NCBI GenBank assembly: GCA_021307315.1
Contig: JAJSPD010000033.1
Location: 248,001 to 312,000 of the forward strand
From: Bisporella sp. PMI_857
Lineage: Eukaryota; Ascomycota; Leotiomycetes; Helotiales; Helotiaceae
Direction: 5' to 3'
Length of the DNA stretch: 64,000 nucleotides
How positions within the stretch are numbered: the stretch's first letter is position 1; the number at the start of each line of letters is the position of its first letter. Below the pieces are notes generated by a model. That model was not told the DNA's origin. It ran no database searches and was given only the letters and a program-made list of their open reading frames with translations. A program made the position numbers and the translations under genes. This document shows, in pieces, positions 8,723 to 47,952 of this stretch.

Positions 8723-10463
8723 ATGCTTATTAAAGATACTATTGCTGATTCTACTGATCCAGGAACCTTAAGACCTGATATCCCTCCTACTACAACGACT
8801 GGCAAACAGTTTATACCTCTCGAATGCCCTCAATTCGACTGTAATATCACGCTTCCTACACACGTTACGCCAGGCGACGCATTAGCTATTTGGAGCCTGT
8901 TTTTTACTCAGTAACAGCTGGAAGTGATAGTTGAGAATACAAATGACTATATATCGAAAGAGAAACTTTATAGTCCTCGAACAAAAGGTGCACGCGTTGT
9001 CCAGCCTATCACGATTGCTGAGTTGTACGGATATATGGGAATATAGATTTATATGGGATTACATATAGAAAACAATGTTCGAACGTATTGGAGTACTTTA
9101 GAATCGATGCCTCGACATACAATAGTTACTCAAACAATGGGTAAAAATTGATGGGAAGATATACATCGATTTTTGCAGCTTTCTAGACTTGATACGTGTG
9201 ACGTATTTCAGAAGGTTTGAAGCAACTTTTTCCTGTATTATATAGTAAACTGACTTTGCTTTTACTTTAGGTTGAACCTTTAAATACGCACATTCAGTCT
9301 ATTTGCACGCAACTTTGGATGCCTGGCCGCGACTTAGCTGTCGACGAGGCTATGGCCCGACTTACTGGCAGATCAAAAGATACTCTTACAATACCTTCTA
9401 AACCTATTTTAGAGGGTTATAAAGTGTGGTGTTTAGCTCAAAAAGGCTATTTACTTGTATGGTGTTTTCACAAAAAGGAAAAGGCAAAAATCGAGGACCC
9501 CAAAGCATTGTACTACCAACGGAGCTTAAGACGAATCCTACAGCCGCTGTCGTTCCGTACTTAATTTCAAAGCTTCCTACAGCTAAATTCAGGTACTGCG
9601 TGTACCTGGATAACCTTTTTACGTCTACAAAGCTGTTGAAAGTACTTCGAGACCGGGGAATAGGTGCTACCGGCACATGCCGAAGAATTTTAGGCATATC
9701 GGAGGATCTAGTACAAAAAATGGCTATCGACAAAACAAAAGATGAAATCCCTTGGGGGGCCTTGATTATCCGACTTTCGGAAGACCAACAAATCTTTTTT
9801 TTGACCTGGAAAGATAACGCATTAGTCCATTTTTGGTCTACAATATCAGATGGCCAAAGTACGATTATTCGAAAACGCAAACGCCCTTCTGAAACTTCTT
9901 CCTCAGCTAGAACAGCTAGAGTTCCTTTTGGTGATTTACCTACAAAAAAGCTATCAATGCCACGATTCGTCGACGATTATAATCACCAAATGAACGCTGT
10001 TGATCAAGCTGATCAACTACGATCATACAACTCTGGTTTACGACGTATTCGCAAAGGAGGGTGGCATGCTATTTGGCACTTTCTATTCAACGTTGTTTTA
10101 GTCAATTGCTATCTTCTTTCTTTCTATTCTGAAGCTTCTAATACGCAAAAGTTTACAACTCAAAAAGCGTTCAGAATAGAACTTTCTACAGCTCTAATGA
10201 AAAAAGCTCAAGAAACGCCACGCAAAGGAAAAGCCTTTATATCACCAAATATCAATTCAAATCACAAATTAGAGTTTGCAACTAGCTGTCGAGACTGTTA
10301 TGCTTGCAAGGCGAGAAGTTATGTAAGAGTACTTTCAAAACGCAGGATTCCAGGGGATATTACAGGCAGTTCTTCGCAAAACCAACGTCCCCCTGCATCG
10401 AGGTATGCATGTATTACATGCCAGGCACTTCTTTGTTCAATAAGCGTTAGTACAATTAGCTAG
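8723..10463 (+). mobile_element. piggyBac-type transposase relic (DDE_Tnp_1_7), inactivated
   Basis: The broken frames together encode a PiggyBac-family transposase, a nuclear cut-and-paste enzyme. The conserved acidic positions are visible: LAVDEAMARL near 9345, VYLDNLFTSTKLL near 9605 and the FVDDYNHQMNAVDQADQL segment near 9975. Upstream, NDYISKEKLY and ITIAELYGYMGI are the usual N-terminal motifs. A probable intron with a TTTAG acceptor ends at 9270. In-frame stops occur at 8912-8914, 9044-9046 and 9149-9151, and the frame shifts near 9475, between the LLVWCFHKK and KGKNRGPQ stretches. The cysteine-rich C-terminal tail is still partly present near 10290-10430 (CRDCYACKAR, ACITC). Terminal repeats and TTAA targets were not identified. 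The family call is secure and the copy is dead. Confidence 0.85.
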
Positions 10464-41749: not shown

Positions 41750-41971
41750 TGTCACGGCCCTGGCCTATTTCGCTTAGAACCCCTTGGGGCTCGGCCTCTG
41801 ACACCACAAGGCCTCGCTTACACTGACCCCCGTATAGAAAGCACTGCTTCCCTTCCCTTCTTCTATCTGTAGCTTGTTCTCTTCGTTATAACAATTGATG
41901 GCCATCCATACTCTTGAGTCCTTTTCCTGAGATCTACGGATCGAGATCCCTGTCCGTCTTGAGTTGTTACA
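41750..41971 (+). repeat. LTR-A copy 6
   Basis: Begins TGTCACGGCCCTGG and ends GAGTTGTTACA, 222 bp. The TATA region is shortened (CCCCGTATAGAAAGCAC), so this copy has probably lost its promoter core. Flanks GAATC and TAAAC do not match. Confidence 0.85.
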
Positions 41972-42029: not shown

Positions 42030-42310
42030 TACGGAGGTCGCGGCCAAAAGTCATGGGACTCTTGGCATTAGGCGGAAAAGTGCCAAGAAAGGAACCCCAA
42101 TCACCTAGCAACGGCGATAGTGACTACTACGCTAAAAGGGTGGGAGATTCTAGTGGACATAGTGATGCTCTATAGGGCTTTCAGCTTCTTGCAAGCCTGA
42201 AACTGCCCTGTAATTATAGGTACCCTACGTTGCTATGCCAGAAGTGTGGCGTGCTTAGCCATTTTCAGTTGGCGCCAAGAGTCCTATGACTTTTGGCCGC
42301 GACCTCCGTA
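42030..42310. mobile_element. 281-bp MITE with 37-bp terminal inverted repeats
   Basis: The left arm from 42030 (TACGGAGGTCGCGGCCAAAA then GTCATGGGACTCTTGGC) and the right arm ending at 42310 are near-perfect complements over about 37 bp. If TA is the target dinucleotide, the element proper is 42032-42308. No coding capacity. It lies about 280 bp beyond the stop codon of the NLR gene. Neither the arms nor the interior matches the other MITEs here. Confidence 0.85.
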
Positions 42311-42592: not shown

Positions 42593-45500
42593 CTATACAA
42601 GTCTTGACGTTCCTTTAAATCTGAGAATAGATATTCTCCCTGATGAGTGTCCTAATACAATGACTTTGTCCCAGACAGCCTCACAAGTCGGACGATAATC
42701 AGGAGGAAGCCAGAGAATATTTGTCCCTCCTTCTACTATCCAATCATTTGCTACAAATAAAGCTAGCTCTGCTCTGCCGTCTTGCAAGAAGGCCACAGAT
42801 CCGACCGAGCGCGAGTGGCCCTCGAGCGTCTGCAGCGCCGCACCTGTGACGGTGTCCCAGAGCCGTACTGTTTTATCGTCGCCATCTGACACGACCTGAT
42901 TGCCATCTGGCGAGAAAGCCACAAAAGTGACCCGGCTAGAGTGGCCTTCGAGCGTTTGCAGCGCCGCACCCGTGACAGCGTCCCAGAGCCGCACTGTCTT
43001 ATCTTCGGACCTCGACACGACTTGTTTGCTATCGGGTGAGAAAGCCACGGAAGTGACTAAACCCGAGTGGCCCTCCAGCGTCTGCAGTGCTGCACCCGTG
43101 GTGGCGTCCCAAAGCCGCACTGTCTTATCGTCGGATCCCGACAAGACCTGCTTGCCGTTGGGCGAGAAGGCCACAGATTCGACTGAGCGTGAGTGGCCTT
43201 CGAGCGTCTGCAGCGCCGCACCTGTGACTGTGTGCCAGAGCCGTACTGTCATATCGTAGGACCCCGACACGACCTGCTTGCTGTCAGGTGAAAAAGCTAC
43301 GAACGTGACCCAGCCCGAGTGGCCCTTGAGTGTTTGCAACGCCGCACCCGTGATGGCGTCCCAGAGCCGCACTGTTTTATCTTCGGACGTTGACACAACT
43401 TGCTTGCCGTCAGGTGAGAAAGCCACGGAAGTGACCCAGCCCGAGTGGCCCTCAAGCGTCTGCAGCGCCGCACCTGTGGCCGCGTCCCAGAGCCGCACTG
43501 TCTTATCATAGGACCCCGACACGACCTGCTTACCGTCAGGTGAGAAGGCCACGGACCTGACCCAGCGTGAGTGGCCCTCGAGCGTCTGTAGCGCCGCACC
43601 CGCGACGGCGTCCCAAAGCCGTACTGTTTTATCGTCGGACCCCGACACGACCTGATTGCCGTCTGGCGAGAAAGCCACAGAGGTGACCCAGCCCGAGTGG
43701 CCTTCGAGCGTCTGCAGCGCCGCACCCGTGACAGCGTCCCAGAGCCGCACTGTCTTATCGTAGGACCCCGACACGACCTGCTTACCGTCAGGTGAGAAGG
43801 CCACGGACTTGACCCAGCGTGAGTGGCCCTCGAGCGTCTGTAGCGCCGCACCCGCGACGGCGTCCCAAAGCCGTACTGTTTTATCGTCGGACCCCGACAC
43901 GACCTGATTGCCGTCAGGTGAGAAAGCCACGGAAGTGACCCAGCCCGAGTGGCCCTCAAGCGTCTGCAGCGCCGCACCTGTGGCCGCGTCCCAGAGCCGC
44001 ACTGTCTTATCATAGGACCCCGACACGACCTGCTTGCCGTCAGGTGAGAAAGCCACGGACTTAACCCAGCGTGAGTGGCCCTCGAGCGTCTGTAGCGCCG
44101 CACCCGCGACGGCGTCCCAAAGCCGCACTGTTTTATCTTCGGACCCTGACACGACCTGATTGTTGTCTGGCGAGAAAGCCACAGAGGTGACCCGGCTCGA
44201 GTGGCCTTCGAGCGTCTGCAGCGCCGCACCCGTGACAGCGTCCCAGAGCCGCACTGTCTTATCGTCGGATCCCGACACGACCTGCTTACCGTCAGGTGAG
44301 AAAGCCACGGACTTGACCCAGCCCGAGTGGCCCTCCAGCGTCTGCAGCGCCGCACCCGTGACGGCGTCCCAGAGCCGTACTGTCATATCGCCGGATCCTG
44401 ACACAACCTGCTTGCCGCCAGGTGAGAAGGCCACGGACGTGACCAGGTACGAGTGGCCCTCGAGAGTCTGTAGCGCCGCACTCCAATCCGCTTGCACTTT
44501 CGATTTCCTCTGGATCCAAGGTGAGATAGACCCCTCAAATCGTCTCTGAACTATACTCTGTTCTGGAGCGAAGACAAGGGCTGAAGAGTAGAGCTGTAGG
44601 GGTGCTTGTTCAATCACCGATCGATTGTATAAGGCGAATCGCTTTGCATCACGGATGAATGCATGTAGATTAGGACTTTTGTCAGCCTTTGTGGGATAGA
44701 TTAGTTAGGGTTCCTTGGTAAATCATAAAATAAAGCTTACTGGAATGAGTGTCTCTAAGGACAATATCGCAAAAATCCCTTCAGAAGTCTTCCTCATCCA
44801 GCCAAGGGCCTCAAGCCAGTGAAGCAAATGGTCTTGGAGGAATTGGTGAACTTGGTCATAGAGTTGAGCACCACTCCTTTTCAGATGCTGGACCCAGTAT
44901 AGGCATGCATATTGAAGCTCTGCAGGAAGATATTTTTCTACTTGATCGCTCTCTATATTATTTGCAAGTACTCCAGGGGCCTCTAGACCACAGATGTTTT
45001 TCTTAAGAGAGATTGATAGAATCTGTATACAGCTCGTAGCTAAAGCATGATGTGCTTCCTCCTCGACCACTTGGAAGTCTAGGTCACGACATCTATCCTT
45101 ATTAAGCAAGAAGTCACGAAATGAAGGATGGTGGAGACGGAGCGGGTGGGTTTGATTCTCTGGGATATCTAAGATCGCATGAAGATCCTCTAGTATTTGG
45201 TCAACTTCCCCTTTTCGGAGATGGAGTAGCCTACTCAATGAATAGGCAGAGAGGGGTGAGAGCAAAACTACTATACTCCCGAGTGTGTGTCTTAGCATGG
45301 CAAATAACTCTCTTTTCTCCTCGTCTGTATATTCCGAAGAAACGGAGTGCTTAAGGACAGTAATATATATCTGGTCGAGGTGCTTCTCTGGTGCTATAAC
45401 GGCGCATCCACTACCCTGAAGAATTGTATCCAGTCTTTTGAGTGCGAACCGCTTCCCTTCGCGGACAAATCGACAGGCAGTTGCAGCCCAAATAAAGAGG

Positions 45501-47091
45501 CCACCAGCATTTAGAACTAGCTGTTTAAGAGTCTGCTCACCTGGCCAGCCAGCTCCAAGGGTCCATTCCTGCCCAATTATCCCTAGGCTGTATTCCAGGA
45601 ATAGAGAGATGTCATGGTTGATAATTGCCGGGGGTATATTTTGGAGTACGAAATCTTTGTGTTCAGTTTGCGGGATACGGTTTATACCATGTCGAATTGG
45701 AATCTCAGGTCTGCTCGTCAGAAAGATCCGAAGCCGTACCGTCTTCAGCGATTGAGCTTCAGTTAAGAGTTGTAGAATCATCTGAATGTCATCCTTACTA
45801 TCACACTCATCAAGGGCGTCGATTATAAGCACATACGAGGAAGGAGAAGAGCTGCTGTCCAGCCTTGCTAACGGACGGAGGACGAGCTGGCGCCACTGAT
45901 CACCGAAAGACTGGTTCGCTATATCATTCTGCTCTATAGCAGCATTGGAAATGAACCGTCGGATTTGTGGTACGTTACGCGCAAGCTGCCTAGCAATAGT
46001 CGTAAAAAATTTGCCTGCATGTCCAACATCTCCACCGCCTCTTGAGAAGAAAAAGCTAGCCCCAAGTCGCCTTTGATCAAAGTATCTGCGGGCTACGGTG
46101 CGCGCAAGCGTCGACTTTCCTGTGCCGGCCAAGCCGTTCAACCAGAAGATGCACCGCTTATCTTGCCCATCAGCCCAGGTATATATACTCCGAAGAAGCT
46201 CAACACGGGTGTTTGGGAGACAGGAGGGCGAGTGCTGCTTTGCATACGAATTAAATGGCGCCTCAACAGCGTATGGTAGACGATCGATTCCTGAGTGGTT
46301 AGTGCTCGTTTTGATGGTAGATATCAAATTGAAGTTGTGCGCTCACCCTTTGAAGGTTTGTCGATCTCATCCCGGAGTCGGATAAACGCATTATCACTCC
46401 CCTCCCCATAGATAAGCGGCATATATATGTCAAATATGCCTAGTAGCGAGTACGCCTTGTCTTCTTTCCGCGTGGTCTGGCGATTTTCTGCCCACAATAA
46501 GCGCTCTTCAACTTCGAACTGAGAAAGAGGAGCTCCTTGAAGCGCTGAAATAGCAATCCCTGTTATCTTGTGAATTTGTCGCTCTAGAGTTCTCTTATCA
46601 CCTAGCCGACTGCCTTCCTGGGAGAAGAATTCAACCGAACCTGGGGCAAGGAGCTCTTGAAGGGTCCAACCCCGTGTAAACCATCTGCTTGCCCGAAAAG
46701 CCGGTTCCCAAGTAAGATCGGAGACTTGATTGCTTGCTTCCCTCTCAGTAATCGAAACATCTGATAGATAGACGTAGCATTTAGCCGCATTGTGATACCA
46801 GCGAAACATAGAGTTGATGGCCTCTGCGAGCTCGTTGTTATTCGATTTGTCGATGCAACATGTATCAACCCAAAAATATTCTAAGCCGTCGTGTCTAGCT
46901 TGTTCTCCGCAGAACCGAATTTTGTCATAGCCAGCCTTGCTCTTGCCCGCCCCATCTATCAAATCCCTAAAGGTCACCTCTTCGGTATCAAGGCCCCATG
47001 TGTGCGAAAGTATGGCATACAGGGGAATATCATCGCCGAAGTCCTTGGTCAGGCTGAACTCGCCATCGCTGTTGCGTTCTAGAAGACGCAT
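42593..47091 (-). CDS. HET-NACHT-WD40 NLR protein (HET-E/HNWD type), intact, three exons
   Basis: Signal-transducing NTPase of the fungal NLR class, expected to act in heterokaryon incompatibility or xenorecognition and to trigger regulated cell death. Exons are 47091-46347, 46290-44741 and 44686-42593. The introns (56 and 54 bp) have GTGAGC/CTCAG and GTAAGC/AAAG ends with CTAAC branch sites. The 1462-residue frame is unbroken. The HET domain (residues 23-222) has LYAILSHTWG, EYFWVDTCCIDK, RGWTLQELLAP and KAYSLLGIFDIYMP. The NACHT domain has Walker A GLAGTGKST (301-309), Walker B YVLIIDALDEC (401-411) and the FLTSRPE motif (439-444). Exon 3 encodes 13 full 42-residue WD40 repeats (842-1387), each GHS...VAFSPDGKQVVSGS.DKTVRLWD...GAALQTLE, then a degenerate one and a unique tail. 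The start MRLLERNSDGEF precedes the HET core at the usual distance. Related genes are known as het-e and hnwd in Podospora; orthology is not claimed. Confidence 0.95.
42821..44458 (-). repeat. Array of 13 near-identical 126-bp WD40 repeats
   Basis: Thirteen in-frame 126-bp units inside exon 3 of the NLR. Units 3-8 form three copies of a 252-bp dimer: the motif CCCAGCGTGAGTGG recurs at 43560, 43812 and 44064. The nucleotide sequence is highly conserved between units, with differences clustered at a few codons. Confidence 0.95.
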
Positions 47092-47730: not shown

Positions 47731-47952
47731 TGTAACAACTCAAGGCAAACAGGGATCTCGATCCGTAGAGATTTCAGGGAGGAGGACTCAAAGGTATGAA
47801 CGGCTATCAATTGTTATAACGAAGAGAACAAGCTACAGACAGAAGAAGGGAAGGAAAGCAGCGCTTTATATACAAGAGACAGGTCAGGGGCTATCGTAAG
47901 CGAGTCGCCGAGACCTAGGGGTCATAAGCGAAGTTGGGCCAGGGCCGTGACA
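47731..47952 (-). repeat. LTR-A copy 7
   Basis: Begins TGTAACAACTCAAGG and ends GGCCGTGACA; 222 bp, minus orientation. Its TATA (in GCGCTTTATATACAAG) points in the same direction as the NLR gene and lies about 740 bp upstream of its ATG. Flanking pentamers CTCTC and CTGGC differ. Confidence 0.85.

Follow-up and report, generated by a model that had tools for sequence, protein, structure and literature searches.

The 64,000-nt window analysed here (contig JAJSPD010000033.1, forward-strand positions 248,001 to 312,000, of Bisporella sp. PMI_857, a member of the Helotiales) carries on its minus strand, at 47091-42593, a HET-NACHT-WD40 gene of three exons and 1462 codons. We hold with good confidence that this gene encodes an intact STAND/NOD-like receptor of the HNWD kind, in which binding of a ligand would trigger cell death. 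Directly supported are its gene structure, its domains, the pattern of variability in its repeats, their homogenisation within the locus, and the presence of its HET type on two NACHT lineages; from these and from published work on HET-E we infer ligand binding, oligomerisation, killing and the expression of the gene. Its parts are as follows.

46347..47091, minus strand: exon 1, HET effector domain, residues 1-248 plus one base
46291..46346, minus strand: intron 1, 56 nt, phase 1, GTGAGC...CAG
44741..46290, minus strand: exon 2, NACHT/STAND NTPase module
46109-46135, minus strand: Walker A motif GLAGTGKST in exon 2, residues 301-309
45803-45826, minus strand: Walker B-like motif IIDALDEC in exon 2
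44687..44740, minus strand: intron 2, 54 nt, phase 0, GTAAGC...AAG
44486..44686, minus strand: start of exon 3, conserved NACHT-to-WD linker, residues 766-832
42848..44485, minus strand: WD40 array of 13 tandem repeats, residues 833-1378
42593..42847, minus strand: divergent tail of 84 residues after the WD array, then the stop codon

Splicing of the window sequence at 46346-46291 and 44740-44687 yields a frame with a single stop at its end, whereas the unspliced HET frame reaches an in-frame stop within intron 1. An NCBI protein (P0001, vegetative incompatibility protein HET-E-1, Bisporella sp. PMI_857) is identical over all 1462 residues. Among the related loci of the genome, with the window gene counted, intron 2 is bounded by GT..AG at the identical codon in 29 of 30 testable loci; the position of intron 1, near which the linker differs in length among loci, is exact in 6 of 22 and at most 9 nt off in 10 of 22. 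Because the public model is identical and the intron positions are shared, there is little doubt about the reading frame, and the three in-phase exons with an intact frame proposed in the first-pass annotation stand. The gene and its model are not new, having already been annotated as HET-E-1. Among the 120 protein matches listed of 5591, the best after the protein itself shows 70% identity across residues 1-830, and none is a close orthologue.

The domain content agrees with the earlier proposal of a complete receptor of the HET-E/HNWD kind. In particular, the gene has an N-terminal HET domain, a central NACHT with nucleotide-binding motifs and C-terminal WD repeats of 42 residues. Pfam profiles identify HET (PF06985) in exon 1 with an E-value of 8e-15, over residues 25-116 and profile positions 1-93 of 146; NPHP3_N (PF24883; E 8e-32) and NACHT (PF05729; E 1.3e-8) in exon 2; and 13 WD40 stretches in exon 3. 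Exon 1 also contains RGWTLQELL at residues 140-148, which we take to be a conserved HET block, and the NTPase motifs are kept across 33 compared NACHT exons (Walker A in 32, DALDEC in 31). A sequence search of the PDB with the HET exon returned no relative; with the NACHT exon its sole match, to adenylyl-sulfate kinase, was weak (E 0.043) and was rejected. Rfam and tRNA scans of the window returned nothing.

HET-E itself binds GTP and its reactivity depends on its WD repeats (PMC2873952). Propeller ligand binding, NACHT switching and HET-driven death are therefore the likeliest mechanism for the window gene. Two WD40 propellers would keep the protein shut while displaying a variable rim of loop residues, and a matching non-self protein would bind across that rim. 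The NACHT NTPase would then exchange its nucleotide and the receptor would oligomerise, bringing HET domains together and leading to the death of the fused or invaded cell. Specificity would be renewed by duplication, loss and conversion of the 42-residue repeats within the gene, with selection acting on loop positions 13, 14, 16 and 32.

The 13 repeats, each exactly 42 residues (126 nt) long, have a mean pairwise identity of 83.5% as protein (up to 100%) and 84.1% as DNA; single pairs reach 96.8% DNA identity and every pair differs by at least 3%. The protein value, a plain pairwise mean and not the output of that paper's program, lies just below the 85% cut-off for high internal conservation of repeats in PMC4986451. 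Within the window gene the repeats vary mainly at positions 13, 14, 16 and 32, and in the 205 repeats of the 23 loci that have six or more (the divergent L037 was left out) the five most variable of the 42 columns are 32, 16, 14, 13 and 34. Adding seven to a codon number of the Podospora repeat gives the column used here, which places codons 7, 9, 25 and 27 in columns 14, 16, 32 and 34; this mapping presumably holds, given the published pattern of variable and conserved positions and the numbering of HET-E. Those four codons are the positively selected ones in Podospora, where each variable pair encloses a conserved codon (8 and 26, respectively; PMC1805685), and column 13 corresponds to a member of the seven-position set of PMC12222747. 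When columns 14, 16, 32 and 34 are compared with all sets of four columns, 0.07% of the sets are equally variable in the window gene and 0.002% in the 22 other loci. Further, with the 23 loci pooled, the proportion of non-synonymous differences within loci (pN) relative to the pooled synonymous proportion (pS) is 1.38-1.69 at columns 13, 14, 16 and 32, as compared to 1.11 at column 1, 0.98 at column 34 and 0.44 overall.

The repeats also carry the trace of their turnover. Repeats 4, 6 and 8 are alike at 95-97% and repeats 3, 5 and 7 at 89-94%, an alternation which suggests that the array grew by duplication of two-repeat units. In a set of 224 repeats matching the 42-residue pattern, drawn from 30 family loci (several with incomplete arrays) and from no other WD genes, the nearest DNA neighbour lies in the same locus for 95.5% of repeats, as compared to a permuted mean of 3.5% and maximum of 9.4%; mean DNA identity is 0.834 within loci and 0.666 between them. 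All 13 window repeats have their nearest neighbour inside the gene itself, and within this 30-locus set no exchange between loci was seen (the best match of a window repeat in another locus is 84.9%, against 96.8% within the gene). The pattern points to homogenisation within each locus, that is, to concerted evolution. In contrast, the repeats of Podospora het-d/HNWD1 and het-e/HNWD3 are intermingled, and the two genes can hold identical ones (PMC1805685), while those studied here are homogenised within loci and not visibly between them. Exchange of repeats between loci is a trait of the dynamics of the Podospora family and does not define HNWD membership. Third-position GC content is 0.72 in the WD array (42848-44485), 0.45 in NACHT and 0.41-0.50 in the rest of the gene; paralogous arrays range from 0.38 to 0.84.

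The gene belongs to a large family. Its NACHT exon, 516 residues long, has 29 matches in the genome that span about 500 residues or more; one of them is the window gene and the rest have 41-73% identity. Three further loci are fragmentary or truncated, for a total of 32 NACHT loci at 41% identity or more; Podospora has 10 NWD genes, against some 30 relatives here. HET matches number at least 150, with the best 150 of 729 candidates scored. All but one of the 32 loci were examined, the one left out being on contig C88 with seven stops, and a locus was called open when HET and NACHT each gave one stop-free match and the WD frame reached at least 400 residues. By this definition 16 of 31 loci are open, the window gene among them; its intactness is therefore unremarkable in this genome, and the gene is ordinary in kind, one of about thirty related genes and no exceptional survivor. 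Some of the 16 may not be working genes; two of them (L012 and L038) have no in-frame GT-AG join for intron 1 in our scan, and in seven the WD frame reaches the edge of the retrieved DNA.

Approximate ratios of non-synonymous to synonymous substitution (dN/dS) between the window gene and its eight nearest paralogous exons are 0.12-0.30 for the HET exon and 0.13-0.19 for the NACHT exon; synonymous sites are close to saturated (median pS over all compared of 0.59 and 0.67, respectively). Judged by these ratios, both domains are under long-term constraint, which is no proof of present function. The first-pass annotation had taken intactness as a sign of ongoing selection; the constraint shows selection over the long term only, and the share of open loci removes intactness as a special sign.

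Two observations concern other members of the family. The related HET-NACHT locus on contig C88 (G000:C88:28277-30649) has seven TAG codons in its NACHT match and three TAG and two TAA codons in its HET match; TAG-rich decay is an expected trace of repeat-induced point mutation. Separately, the contig pairs C241/C263 and C10/C38 of this genome (G000) have several HET and NACHT matches with the same or nearly the same scores, and the assembly may hold duplicated stretches there; none of the 31 examined loci lies on these contigs.

What such receptors recognise may differ from the non-self protein of a fusing partner. The strongest alternative, credible though we rate it below the reading given above, is that the gene is a sensor of parasites or bacteria and not of conspecifics, any incompatibility being a by-product. 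The 32 NACHT loci and the fast turnover of repeats suit an open-ended set of targets, and the idea is raised in PMC2873952.

A second alternative arises from the length of the array. Together, the array and tail amount to 15 units of 42 residues, with the 84-residue tail forming, in our reading, two cryptic blades. When twelve complete arrays are counted alike, there are 15 units in the window gene and L042; 14 in L010, L012 and L043; 14-14.5 in L014; about 13-14 in L015, with extra residues past the tail; 13 in L013; 12 in L039 and L041; and 11 in L011 and L038. The arrays of L018, L037, L044 and L046 are short or divergent. A matching divergent tail ends 11 paralogues with complete arrays of 11-15 units.

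Several of these results weigh against an active receptor under selection at its loop positions. The commonest count is 14 units (three or four of the 12 arrays), whereas the window gene has 15. Alleles of Podospora het-d whose conserved repeats number other than 11 were taken as non-reactive, and short-read assembly of highly similar arrays is unreliable (both PMC12222747). The pooled excess of pN is a crude count made without a tree. Taken by itself, the window gene has a similar but weaker pattern: its repeats have an overall pN/pS of 0.27, and columns 13, 16 and 32 are slightly above 1 relative to the overall pS but column 14 is not. Moreover, columns 1, 30 and 42 vary in this gene although they are not Podospora positions, and column 34, corresponding to Podospora codon 27, varies weakly (K/M).

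The gene could thus be a non-reactive reserve allele, its frame open, its 15-unit combination recognising nothing at present, and the gene kept as a stock of repeats or by chance. The spread of 11 to 15 units among the complete arrays would fit this, but the constraint on HET and NACHT does not, and arrays that are not visibly common to several loci make the role of a stock weak; we regard it as unlikely. A third alternative holds that the receptor recognises a HET-C-like glycolipid-transfer protein (GLTP), as Podospora HET-E and HET-D do. The architecture is the same and the genome has one GLTP locus that we found, in two adjoining pieces; however, the sister HNWD Het-r responds to another partner, het-v (PMC2873952), het-d and het-e are reported to have arrived at HET-C recognition by convergence (PMC12222747), and one GLTP gene would be an unlikely target for some 30 receptors, leaving this ligand quite improbable. 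The GLTP (HET-C family) locus, the only one found in the genome, comprises two adjacent matches (G000:C178:127991-128469), one of which holds a stop in its six-frame match that may be intronic. Finally, an array or frame created by misassembly is the least probable of all, since the known unreliability of short reads in such arrays is set against 13 units that are all in frame, exactly 42 residues long and at least 3% different in every DNA pair, and against the tail shared with 11 paralogues.

The preferred reading is a ligand-triggered receptor with two WD40 propellers, which were modelled from exon 3. A single-sequence fold of exon 3 was useless, with a predicted local distance difference test score (pLDDT) of 39; a model from a shallow alignment of 25 sequences reached a pLDDT of 72.6 and a predicted template modelling score of 0.55, with residues 90-500 mostly above 80 and residues 539-593 and 623-641 below 50. 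Parts of this model superpose on the eight-bladed Tako8 over 318-319 residues at 1.6 Å and on ODA16, which we take to be eight-bladed as well, over 334-335 residues at 1.4 Å. In comparison, seven-bladed designs fit over 285-286 residues at 3.6-3.9 Å, and WDR5, presumably seven-bladed, over 284-293 residues at about 2.7-3.0 Å. The segment from which most eight-bladed fits begin is the following.

43478..44485, minus strand: repeats 1-8, exon-3 residues 70-404, fitting eight-bladed structures at 1.4-1.6 Å

Most eight-bladed fits begin at residue 70 (repeats 1-8) and some at about residue 110 (repeats 2-9); exon-3 residues 109-446 fit eight-bladed structures equally well, and the membership of the ring varies between comparisons. 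An eight-bladed first propeller is accordingly an uncertain lead: the model may overlay blades, and the blade number is easily biased in models of near-identical repeats. Were it correct, eight blades and a further seven from the five remaining repeats and two cryptic units (8+7) would account for all 15. For Podospora, the model in the literature has two seven-bladed propellers (7+7) made of 11 conserved blades and three cryptic ones (PMC12222747), a composition of 11 + 3 units as compared to 13 conserved and, in our reading, two cryptic units here.

The HET exon appears to behave as a movable module. Three loci (L031, L034 and L036) have HET exons 75-76% identical to exon 1 of the window gene over residues 1-243, but their NACHT is 15-29% identical to the window NACHT in the alignable parts, and their NACHT exons group apart from the others, in a clade with full support (100/100) and a very long branch. 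Their DNA similarity to the 745 positions of exon 1 spans positions 1-742 in L031, 1-707 in L034 and 1-729 in L036. The start of exon 2 is matched by none of the three, against 28 of 34 other compared loci, and the 5′ flank by none of the three, against only 12 of 34. In approximately unbiased (AU) tests the HET data do not reject the three loci as one clade (p 0.11) and reject a clade of the three with L043 (p 0.017), whereas the grouping seen in HET is rejected by the NACHT data (p 1.6e-44); as the groups were picked after the identities or tree were known, the tests are not clean. Loss of protein similarity near residue 249 is also seen in several loci with an ordinary NACHT, where it comes from the change of frame at intron 1. 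Over 24 loci, identity to the window gene in HET does not correlate with that in NACHT (rho -0.27, p 0.21), which is weak evidence alone. Overall, HET exons of one type sit on two NACHT lineages. A comparable shuffling at intron 2 was considered and not claimed, as the jump in identity from NACHT to linker falls inside exon 2 in some loci.

Combinatorial assembly of fungal NOD-like receptors (NLRs) is well known (PMC4986451). Our limited search for exon shuffling in the fungal incompatibility and NLR literature found only a review with a passage on brown algae and a Sordariales survey citing an algal paper, and the three loci are therefore claimed only as a clear example. A broader proposal is that HNWD receptors are built of exchangeable exons, with a HET cassette that moves between distant NACHT lineages and whose DNA similarity stays within its exon, WD repeats homogenised only in their own locus, a propeller grown from seven to eight blades and a tunable repeat number. 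We consider it doubtful, and our confidence in it, low at first, was lowered slightly because the ring assignments disagree and the end of similarity at residue 249 is common to loci with an ordinary NACHT.

Dispersed repeats flank the gene as the first-pass annotation had described, with an inverted pair of 222-nt copies, presumably its long terminal repeat (LTR) element LTR-A, on either side and a miniature inverted-repeat transposable element (MITE) past the stop codon.

41750..41971, unstranded: 222-nt dispersed repeat, left copy, LTR-like TGTAACA...TGACA ends, inverted relative to the right copy
47731..47952, unstranded: 222-nt dispersed repeat, right copy, upstream of the gene
42030..42310, unstranded: MITE with 37-nt inverted ends (97%), about 280 nt past the stop codon

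Searches with the flanking sequences gave 558 and 444 first-look candidates, the best 40 being scored in each and the second query including the MITE. Two other MITE copies, on contigs C123 and C37, are 97 and 100% identical among the matches listed, which suggests recent activity. No exact 5-nt target-site duplication was found at either 222-nt copy. The same annotation had read these elements as a sign of a rearranging segment; being dispersed families, they attest to element activity nearby and not to rearrangement of the gene.

The distance from LTR-like repeats to HET/NACHT matches was examined with 72 places taken by hand from 99 search rows, without MITE rows, repeats at the same place and some fragments; the HET/NACHT places were also compiled by hand, on contigs of known length. 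After 32 of the 72 places proved unusable, and with merging and removal of the window pair, 34 points remained. Their median distance is 7.8 kb, as compared to 16.1 kb for random places (p 0.006), although 3 of 34 lie within 3 kb (5.0 expected) and 9 of 34 within 5 kb (7.7 expected, p 0.36). The association is ambiguous, and we read it as shared compartments and not as a mechanism. Pfam scans of 20 open frames in the neighbourhood also identified, on the plus strand at window positions 9423-10460, a match to the DDE_Tnp_1_7 transposase (E 4.5e-18), a family that we take to be piggyBac-like.

Among known systems, the nearest are HET-E, HET-D and HET-R (HNWD) of Podospora anserina, which share with the window gene the order HET-NACHT-WD40, WD repeats that are 42 residues long and highly alike within a gene, most of the variable repeat positions and divergent C-terminal blades. 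The highly repetitive propeller 2YMU and the artificial eight-bladed design Tako8 share the near-identical WD blades but have no HET or NACHT part, and 2YMU fits the exon 3 model worse (288 residues at 3.6 Å). Apaf-1 likewise places an NTPase switch before WD40 propellers, its sequence match running through exon 3 only; it has a CARD instead of HET and an NTPase of a different family.

HNWD genes are textbook examples of fast-diversifying fungal immune receptors, and their genetics rest largely on one model species. This Helotiales genome adds some 30 relatives, of which about half have all three frames (HET, NACHT and WD) open; it shows much the same variable positions, and it separates homogenisation within loci from exchange between them. 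Its natural series of array lengths offers a way to ask how many blades such a receptor tolerates. If the exons are exchangeable and the propeller enlarged, repeat number would be a tunable trait of specificity and not a defect. The window gene illustrates well how such receptors diversify.

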